From Verrucomicrobiales bacterium (GTDB taxonomy: Bacteria > Verrucomicrobiota > Verrucomicrobiia > Verrucomicrobiales > DEV007): a DNA stretch of 37,068 nt. Under the pieces are notes generated by a model. That model worked only from the letters and a program-made list of their open reading frames with translations, had not been told where the DNA came from and did not search any database. Every line of letters begins with the position of its first letter. The first letter of the stretch is position 1. Of the stretch, positions 24,645 to 26,689 are shown in pieces. The stretch is taken from NCBI GenBank assembly GCA_014239335.1, contig JAAZZC010000130.1, positions 1-37,068 of the forward strand. The letters are read 5' to 3'. Both the position numbers and the translations under genes were made by a program.

Positions 24645-24670
24645 TTAGGATCTCTTTATTACAAATAAAC

Positions 24671-24704
24671 AAAAAAGGCGCTTTGATTTCAAAGCGCCTT
24701 TTTT
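24671..24704. terminator. Perfect bidirectional terminator between the Gfo/Idh gene and rpsA
   Basis: AAAAAAGGCGCTTT (24671-24684) and its exact complement (24691-24704) form a 14-bp stem around a 6-nt loop. T runs appear at the 3' side on both strands, so it serves both convergent genes. Confidence 0.95.
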
Positions 24705-24726
24705 GTTTAAATTAAAATGCCATTCT

Positions 24727-26415
24727 TTATTCCTTTTCCTGCTCTCCCTCCTCACCAGGACTCCACTCTTCAGCAACTTGGAATGCTTGCTCCAAGCCCA
24801 CAAGATCCGAACTCGGTCTAAGAGCATCGAAAGCAGCTGTTTCCTTCTTAAGCTGTTCCTCAGTATAGGAAGCAGCTTTAATTGAGAGTCCAATCCGACG
24901 CTCTGCCTTATCAACTTTAATTACACGCGCCTCCACTTCATCTCCAATGTTCACGACTTCTTTTACTTTACCGACGTGCTCTTCACTGAGTTGGGAAATA
25001 TGCACCAACCCGTCCACATCATCTTCTAATTGAACGAACGCGCCAAAAGCCGCAATCTTCGCAACAGTCCCTTTAACCAAATCACCCACAGTGAAGCGAT
25101 TACCAATTTCATCCCAAGGATCCGTTTCTAGCTGCTTAACACCTAGACTAATACGCTGACTATCTTTATCTATTTCTAGTACAACCGCCTGTAATTCATC
25201 TCCTTTCTTGAGTGTTTCACTTGGGTGATTAATCTTTCTAGTCCAACTGAGGTCAGAAACGTGAACCATGCCATCGATGCCATCCTCAAGCTCAATGAAT
25301 GCACCATAAGGCGTGAGGTTTCTAACTTCTCCATTAATGGTAGTTCCTATCGGATAACGACCCTCGACATTGTCCCACGGATTAGGCTCTAATTGGCGAA
25401 CTCCCAAGGAGATTTTCTGCTCTTCTATATTAATACCTAAAACAACAGATTCAATTTCTTGTCCCAACTCTAAAACATCAGAAGGTCTAGTTATTCGTTT
25501 AGTCCATGATAATTCAGACACATGTATTAATCCTTCAACACCCTCTGCTACCTCAACGAAAGCACCATAGGGAACAAGTTTTGTGATTTTACCCTTAACT
25601 TGATCTCCAACAGGAAATCGATTCTCAATATCTTCCCATGGATTTGGAGTTAATTGTTTAAGGCCTAAAGACACCCTCTCCTTTTCCTTATCTACTTCTA
25701 ATATCTGAACTTTTATAGGCTGAGCAATGGTAAGCATCTCACTAGGATGATTCACTCTACCCCAACTCATGTCTGTTATATGGAGAAGGCCATCCATTCC
25801 TTTAAGATCAATGAACGCCCCAAAATCAGTAATATTTTTAACAAAACCTTCAACCTCATCTCCCGCATTAACCTCTTCAAGAAACGCCTGACGCTGCTCA
25901 GCACGCTCAGCCTCAATTACTTCTCTACGACTAAGAACAACATTTTTACGTTCATCATTTATTTTAACGATCTTAAATTCATATATGTTTCCTACGTACT
26001 CAGTAAGATCCTTAGGCGGTATAATATCAATCTGTGAACCAGGCAAGAACGCCTCAACCCCAACATTCACCATCAAACCACCTTTAACGACAGACTTCAC
26101 TTTACCTTTAACCAAACCTCCATCGTGGAACACTTTAGCAATCTTATCCCAATTCTGCTTGTGCGCTGCTTTCTCTTTAGAAAGCACTATCATTCCTTCG
26201 TCGTTCTCTAAACGCTCCAAAAGAACTTCTATTTCTTTACCTACTTCTATTTCCTCATCTTCAAATTCTGAGACAGGGATAGCCCCTTCTGACTTGTAGC
26301 CAATATCCACCAGAACGATTTGGGGTTGAATTTCGATAATGCGGCCGATTACAATAGAACCTTCTCGGATCTCGCGGAAGGACTTATCGATGAGAGCAAG
26401 TAACTCAGTGCTCAT
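24727..26415 (-). CDS. rpsA: 30S ribosomal protein S1
   Basis: This 562-residue protein (E. coli 557) has six S1 RNA-binding domains. They start near GSIVIGRIIEIQ (about 19), GLVKGKVKSVVKGG (about 105), GDEVEGFVKNITDFGAFIDL (about 190), GDQVKGKITKLVPYGAF (about 275), GTTINGEVRNLTPYGAF (about 362) and GDLVKGTVAKIAAFGAF (about 449). Domains 3-6 are most alike, as usual. The acidic tail (GEEGEQEKE) is expected. S1 binds mRNA leaders on the 30S subunit and often controls its own synthesis. ATG 26415 has no Shine-Dalgarno sequence, and the mRNA leader can form the pseudoknot at 26453-26537. A terminator follows the gene. Confidence 0.97.
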   Translation of the reverse strand: MSTELLALIDKSFREIREGSIVIGRIIEIQPQIVLVDIGYKSEGAIPVSEFEDEEIEVGKEIEVLLERLENDEGMIVLSKEKAAHKQNWDKIAKVFHDGGLVKGKVKSVVKGGLMVNVGVEAFLPGSQIDIIPPKDLTEYVGNIYEFKIVKINDERKNVVLSRREVIEAERAEQRQAFLEEVNAGDEVEGFVKNITDFGAFIDLKGMDGLLHITDMSWGRVNHPSEMLTIAQPIKVQILEVDKEKERVSLGLKQLTPNPWEDIENRFPVGDQVKGKITKLVPYGAFVEVAEGVEGLIHVSELSWTKRITRPSDVLELGQEIESVVLGINIEEQKISLGVRQLEPNPWDNVEGRYPIGTTINGEVRNLTPYGAFIELEDGIDGMVHVSDLSWTRKINHPSETLKKGDELQAVVLEIDKDSQRISLGVKQLETDPWDEIGNRFTVGDLVKGTVAKIAAFGAFVQLEDDVDGLVHISQLSEEHVGKVKEVVNIGDEVEARVIKVDKAERRIGLSIKAASYTEEQLKKETAAFDALRPSSDLVGLEQAFQVAEEWSPGEEGEQEKE

Positions 26416-26452
26416 AGGATTGGGTTTGTAAAGTTAAGTTGATAGTTAATTT

Positions 26453-26537
26453 ATGACTTAAATGTCCCGGATTTCTTTCCTCTAAAGCAACGGGACACCA
26501 ACAAATTAAGAGGAATTGGGGTGCGACTTTAAGTCAT
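26453..26537 (-). promoter_or_regulatory. Candidate structured rpsA mRNA leader with pseudoknot
   Basis: Three helices with perfect complementarity can form on the minus-strand RNA. P1 pairs 26528-26537 with 26453-26462 (10 bp, ATGACTTAAA). P2 pairs 26491-26497 with 26463-26469 (7 bp, TGTCCCG). The 3' strands of P1 and P2 are contiguous, so they can stack. The 30-nt bulge contains TTCCTCT (complement of 26509-26515), which is complementary to AGAGGAA in the P2 loop (complement of 26477-26483), a possible 7-bp pseudoknot. The element ends 37 bases before the rpsA ATG and no T run follows, so control of translation is more likely than termination. The purine-rich AGAGGAA may mimic an S1 or ribosome site. 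Confidence 0.6.
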
Positions 26538-26582
26538 TTGAAGAATTGCGCAAGTTCTTATGCACATCTTTCAAATTGAATC

Positions 26583-26588
26583 ATTATA
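26583..26588 (-). promoter_or_regulatory. Consensus -10 box for rpsA
   Basis: The minus strand reads TATAAT here, between tRNA-Gln and rpsA, about 168 bases before the rpsA ATG. No good -35 sits 17 bases upstream. If used, transcription would begin near 26576 and include the whole leader structure. Confidence 0.45.
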
Positions 26589-26615
26589 TAAGCCTTCCTT
26601 TTCAAAAAAGGCCTT

Positions 26616-26689
26616 TGGCAACCCCGCAAGGATTCGAACCTTGAATAACGGTACCAAAAACCGTTGTGTTACCATTACACCACGGGGTT
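26616..26689 (-). tRNA. tRNA-Gln (anticodon TTG)
   Basis: Acceptor strands AACCCCG and CGGGGTT pair over 7 bp, the discriminator is G, and CCA is encoded. The anticodon stem ACGGT/ACCGT holds the loop TTTTGGT, giving anticodon TTG. The T arm is CAAGG-TTCGAAT-CCTTG. The first pair is A-T where E. coli tRNA-Gln has the reverse, T-A. It lies between gpmI and rpsA on the same strand. Confidence 0.97.

Follow-up and report, generated by a model that had tools for sequence, protein, structure and literature searches.

In gamma-proteobacteria, protein S1 represses its own mRNA; the leader has no Shine-Dalgarno (SD) sequence, and free protein S1 competes with 30S-bound S1 (PMC10931766). Loading of the 30S subunit on this initiation region is thought to need protein S1 (PMC10931766). 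Preferential binding is explained there by AU-rich single strands, set in an initiation region with a specific fold. Pseudoknots are high-affinity targets of protein S1, and the E. coli protein binds those of the H-type (PMC10931766). H-type pseudoknots are found in an S1 SELEX ligand, in the 5' standby site of tisB, and in tmRNA (PMC7708055); that of tisB is close to the 5' end and acts together with a single-stranded stretch. Regulatory pseudoknots also occur in the rpsO leaders bound by S15 in E. coli and mycobacteria, the mycobacterial one being located upstream of the initiation site (PMC10931766). SAM-II/SAM-V and preQ1 riboswitches are compact H-type pseudoknots in 5' leaders as well. 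Candidate r-leaders were described by Eckert and Weinberg (2020) from covarying structure associated with one ribosomal-protein gene in one lineage (PMC7247131), and neither rpsA nor bS1 appears in the main text of that paper. In the literature that was covered (supplements and most subscription papers were outside its scope), no rpsA leader structure was found outside gamma-proteobacteria, and control of S1 synthesis was described only for that group.

The rpsA leader of a marine Verrucomicrobiales genome was compared with these systems. Like the E. coli initiation region, it belongs to the same gene, has no SD, and is conserved within its clade. However, a predicted 5' H-type pseudoknot and an A/C-rich strand are found here instead of AU-rich single strands in a folded initiation region, and no structural relation between the two leaders is evident when they are compared by description. 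The SELEX, tisB, and tmRNA pseudoknots share the H-type topology but are not rpsA leaders, and homology with them is unlikely. The rpsO leaders differ in gene, protein, sequence, and helices. Unlike the SAM-II/SAM-V and preQ1 riboswitches, the element has no Rfam match, and its gene context is only rpsA. The type of evidence is the same as for the r-leader candidates. The relevant features are given below in coordinates of the window (the whole stretch of DNA that was analyzed, 37,068 nucleotides).

24666-24709, minus strand: strong terminator-like hairpin downstream of rpsA
24727-26415, minus strand: rpsA, ribosomal protein S1, 562 aa (NCBIfam equivalog, 30S ribosomal protein S1)
26416-26462, minus strand: A/C-rich, G-poor rpsA leader from pseudoknot to start codon, no SD, ca. 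45 nt
26463-26469, minus strand: stem S2, 3' arm, CGGGACA in RNA (covariation)
26477-26483, minus strand: stem S1, 3' arm, AGAGGAA in RNA (covariation of the homologous stem)
26491-26497, minus strand: stem S2, 5' arm, UGUCCCG in RNA, preceded by the conserved loop GUUGG (covariation)
26509-26515, minus strand: stem S1, 5' arm, UUCCUCU in RNA (covariation of the homologous stem)
26518-26520, near 26519, minus strand: predicted transcription start, ca. 4 nt before stem S1 (from the spacing to the -10)
26526-26531, minus strand: predicted -10, TAAAGT (conserved promoter; overlaps the P1 5' arm, 26528-26537)
26548-26553, minus strand: predicted -35, TTGCGC (conserved 16-nt spacer; overlaps the hairpin at 26541-26559)
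26616-26689, minus strand: tRNA-Gln, upstream of rpsA on the same strand

An earlier note on this DNA had proposed three helices upstream of rpsA, namely P1 (26453-26462/26528-26537, ATGACTTAAA/TTTAAGTCAT), P2 (26463-26469/26491-26497, TGTCCCG/CGGGACA), and PK (26477-26483/26509-26515, TTCCTCT/AGAGGAA), together with an extra hairpin (26541-26545/26555-26559, AAGAA/TTCTT). All of these pairings are perfect. PK corresponds to stem S1 and P2 to stem S2. In the RNA, the order is S1 5' arm, loop, S2 5' arm, S1 3' arm, loop, S2 3' arm; the two stems thus cross (a, b, a', b') with compatible loops, as in an H-type pseudoknot. Free-energy folding chose P1 and the PK stem and missed S2, because pseudoknots cannot be drawn by that method. 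The same note had held the arrangement unlikely to arise by chance. Shuffles of the window alone are only suggestive on this point: an equally good H-type pseudoknot was found in 1 of 200 dinucleotide shuffles, five perfect helices of at least 7 bp were observed vs. a shuffle mean of 1.4, a 10-bp perfect helix like P1 was present in 11 of 400 shuffles, and the ordinary fold of the leader had z = -2.0. For PK and P2, the question was settled by the relatives.

The gene rpsA was located in 67 of 75 genomes of the window's family, in 150 of the 151 sampled from the order, and in 108 of 112 from the class; the leaders that were read are a sample of the genomes with a located rpsA. By inspection or search, the pseudoknot was found ahead of rpsA in every sampled Akkermansiaceae leader and in nearly all of those sampled from the window's family, and the same layout was present in representatives of two further Verrucomicrobiales families (G028 and G092). 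In the window's family and Akkermansiaceae, the recurring order is S1 5' arm, a short loop ending in GG, S2 5' arm, 1-5 nt, S1 3' arm, loop, S2 3' arm. The automatic pseudoknot search was anchored on the conserved GGNGY before S2; an unanchored version misplaced some helices. The arm sequences diverge widely while pairing is retained: TTCCTCT/AGAGGAA in the window is matched by CTCTCAATTT/AAGTTGAGAG in L012, CCCGACCGCT/AGCGGTCGGG in L050, ATCCAAACT/GGTTTGGAT in L048, and GTCTAGCGAGC/GCTCGCTAGAC in L118. In the AT-rich leader L141, which the script missed, GCCGATGAG/CTCATTGGC was found by inspection to cross GCCTCG/CGAGGT.

Both stems are confirmed by double changes among these relatives, and PK and P2 therefore represent a conserved, covarying RNA in the rpsA leader. 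For S2, a sequence-only alignment of 44 sequences from the window's family had 90% of its cells paired and contained 53 double changes; slid-register controls were 32-53% paired. For stem S1, a sequence-only alignment of 29 Akkermansiaceae sequences had double changes at 10 of 10 pairs (72 double-change cells), and the covariation value was 0.73 vs. 0.27 for shuffled and at most 0.20 for slid alignments. Within the window's family, stem S1 arms scored 22.3 with their own partner vs. 17.1 with a partner swapped in from another species (n = 47). Some loop nucleotides are strongly conserved as well, with GUUGG before S2 and GCAAUG after it. As a separate observation, GUCGGAAGG directly follows S2 in many members (e.g. 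L046, L050, L024, and L110). It forms the 3' arm of an outer helix in Akkermansiaceae, has no clear partner in the window's family, and is absent from the window's genus. The leaders of Verrucomicrobiaceae (L149-L158 and L161) contain a possible diverged pseudoknot with S2 as GAGTG/CACTC and the second arm much nearer the start codon; they may have diverged from the Verrucomicrobiales pseudoknot and are treated as candidate members only.

Two models were used for searches. R1 comprised the S2 stem and was built from the window's family; R2 was built from Akkermansiaceae and comprised stem S1 and the Akkermansiaceae P1. Applied to 60 leader loci of the order, R1 gave 28 matches at E<=1 and 14 at E<0.002, nearly all in the second family, and R2 recovered 54 of 63 loci of the window's family. 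Thus, models from different families find each other's members out of sample. The only R2 match in the window's genome was the rpsA leader element (E = 0.0023). In genome scans with R1 and R2, every matching genome had a single match, and where the position of rpsA was known, the match lay just upstream of it. The covariance-type check that the earlier note had suggested for related rpsA leaders bore it out for PK and P2, and the element is specific to the rpsA leader across Verrucomicrobiales families. Plain DNA similarity reaches only the same genus. Outside the order, 40 leaders representing other orders of the class were read; the element was not recognizable in them, and R1 and R2 gave one marginal match each.

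The earlier note's author had not recognized a known family, and comparison with Rfam 15 (4227 families) agreed: there was no relevant match in the window by gathering score or at E<=10, and none in 16 relatives at E<=1. The Verrucomicrobiales rpsA pseudoknot is apparently a conserved RNA that has been undescribed so far. Its covarying structure in the leader and lineage-wide association with rpsA are those of ribosomal-protein leaders, and on comparative sequence evidence it would be one with its own fold, outside the described families.

A sigma-70-like promoter is predicted just upstream of the pseudoknot, with a 16-nt spacer in 85 of 99 leaders. The distance from the end of the -10 to stem S1 is ca. 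5-10 nt in most of the window's family and ca. 18-25 nt in Akkermansiaceae, and the R2 alignment places the window's -10 on the CUAG -10 region of the latter. Given this promoter position, the P1 5' arm overlaps the -10, and the small hairpin overlaps the -35. The proposal that P1 forms part of the pseudoknot element was therefore abandoned: besides overlapping the -10, P1 is present in three near-identical species and has lost both arms in the sister genome G007 (L009), where the promoter is kept, and no outer helix was detectable in the window's family, with true partners scoring 13.5 vs. 13.3 for swapped ones. The hairpin at 26541-26559, which had been added to the structure as a further small helix, was likewise rejected as an RNA element, as it coincides with the -35 of the conserved promoter. 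The outer helix of Akkermansiaceae is located in a different place, downstream of the -10 and adjoining stem S1 (CGTTTTTCTTTC/GGAAGGAAAACG; in small-genome members, CGATTTTTC/GAAAAATCG and CACTCATCC/GGATGGGTG). There was no excess of covariation for it within its alignment; it is supported by the fact that the paired sequences differ from genus to genus.

The gene downstream of rpsA is convergent, and with the terminator-like hairpin this makes the rpsA transcript look monocistronic. Read-through transcripts into rpsA are possible, given the same-strand tRNA-Gln immediately upstream. The distance from stem S2 to the ATG is 36-88 nt (median 48) among the rpsA leaders, and the last 40 nt before rpsA average 45% A, 31% C, and 8% G in 93 leaders. 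In one leader (L054 of genome G019), the pseudoknot is separated from the start codon of rpsA by a strong terminator-like hairpin that has a T-run. An SD-like tetramer was found in 0 of the 93 leaders, so the statement that rpsA has no SD was correct. As an argument for an S1 switch it is weak, because genes of this organism generally lack an SD: among 25 genes checked in the window, only 4 have an SD-like tetramer upstream, and initiation without an SD appears, judging from these 25 genes, to be the rule.

The comparison of leader sequences establishes the two stems, their placement between the promoter and the gene, the specific association with rpsA, and the conservation across Verrucomicrobiales; from these we infer protein S1 as the ligand, the sign of regulation, and the exact point at which transcription starts. 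The rpsA mRNA would begin with the H-type pseudoknot formed by stems S1 and S2; an unpaired, A/C-rich, SD-less stretch would come next. Protein S1 may bind the pseudoknot and the adjoining single strand. When bound to the 30S subunit, it would load ribosomes on the leader, and free protein S1 in excess would take the same site and shut off its own translation. A 5' pseudoknot, a long unpaired G-poor stretch, no SD, and a single-gene transcript fit S1-dependent loading that is shut off by excess S1. The pseudoknot alone is no proof of specificity, because protein S1 binds many RNAs. We place slightly better than even confidence in autogenous control by protein S1 through this 5' pseudoknot and leader; in the Verrucomicrobiales (the Akkermansia group), S1 probably controls its own production through the pseudoknot at the start of the message.

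Other readings of the same observations were weighed. Chance complementarity or DNA-level promoter palindromes, with no RNA element at all, would account for P1 and the extra hairpin, given their overlap with the -10 and -35; for stems S1 and S2 this is excluded by the covariation and the reciprocal model searches, and as an explanation of the element it is highly improbable. The pseudoknot might instead be a 5'-terminal stabilizer or a ribosome standby element that maintains a high level of rpsA mRNA and its efficient translation, with no feedback from free S1. Its predicted position at the very 5' end, ahead of a long unpaired A/C-rich stretch, suits such a role, and the 5' pseudoknot and single strand of tisB constitute an S1-dependent standby site (PMC7708055). 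However, one would expect to see a generic stabilizer on other strongly expressed genes too, and both models find one site per genome; we regard this reading as rather unlikely.

It is also conceivable that the leader is a translational switch that sets the level of S1 in response to another ligand, either a small molecule or a different ribosomal protein, such as S2 or S15. The rpsO mRNA has a pseudoknot to which S15 binds (PMC10931766). The strong conservation of the loop nucleotides GUUGG and GCAAUG is as in ligand-binding RNAs. Against this, a ribosomal-protein leader is usually bound by a protein that its own transcript encodes, and here only rpsA, which looks monocistronic, is controlled; a different ligand is improbable.

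With a conserved, covarying pseudoknot in front of rpsA, S1 autoregulation becomes testable in a distant phylum. Most genes are SD-less, judging by this window, and S1-like recruitment may matter more there. The pseudoknot also provides a ready probe for S1 recognition of such structures, and annotation gains a new RNA family.

Different rpsA leaders were observed in two sister orders, with no Rfam match for either. Taking these with the Verrucomicrobiales element, we tentatively suggest, as a doubtful extension, that H-type pseudoknots serving as built-in S1 aptamers were gained repeatedly by rpsA leaders of the class Verrucomicrobiia, or persist in them in diverged form. If true, pseudoknot-mediated S1 feedback would be a general, unrecognized alternative to the E. 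coli scheme. In the order of G309 (L294-L323, L264, L267, L271, L274, and L275), the leader is extremely conserved, with the motif GGCTGAGAAA ... AACCTAACC ... CCTCCGTTGCC ... GCAACG ... GTTAGGCAATGGAG being near-invariant in ca. 20 families; a possible H-type pseudoknot (CCTAAC/GTTAGG and CTCCGTTGCC/GGCAATGGAG) competes with a hairpin, CGTTGC/GCAACG. A third leader type is found in the order of G319 (L324-L328, L330, L332-L335, L337, L339, L340, and L342), where a compact possible pseudoknot, AACCT/AGGTT with CCGCC/GGCGG, is located ca. 100-130 nt upstream of rpsA.
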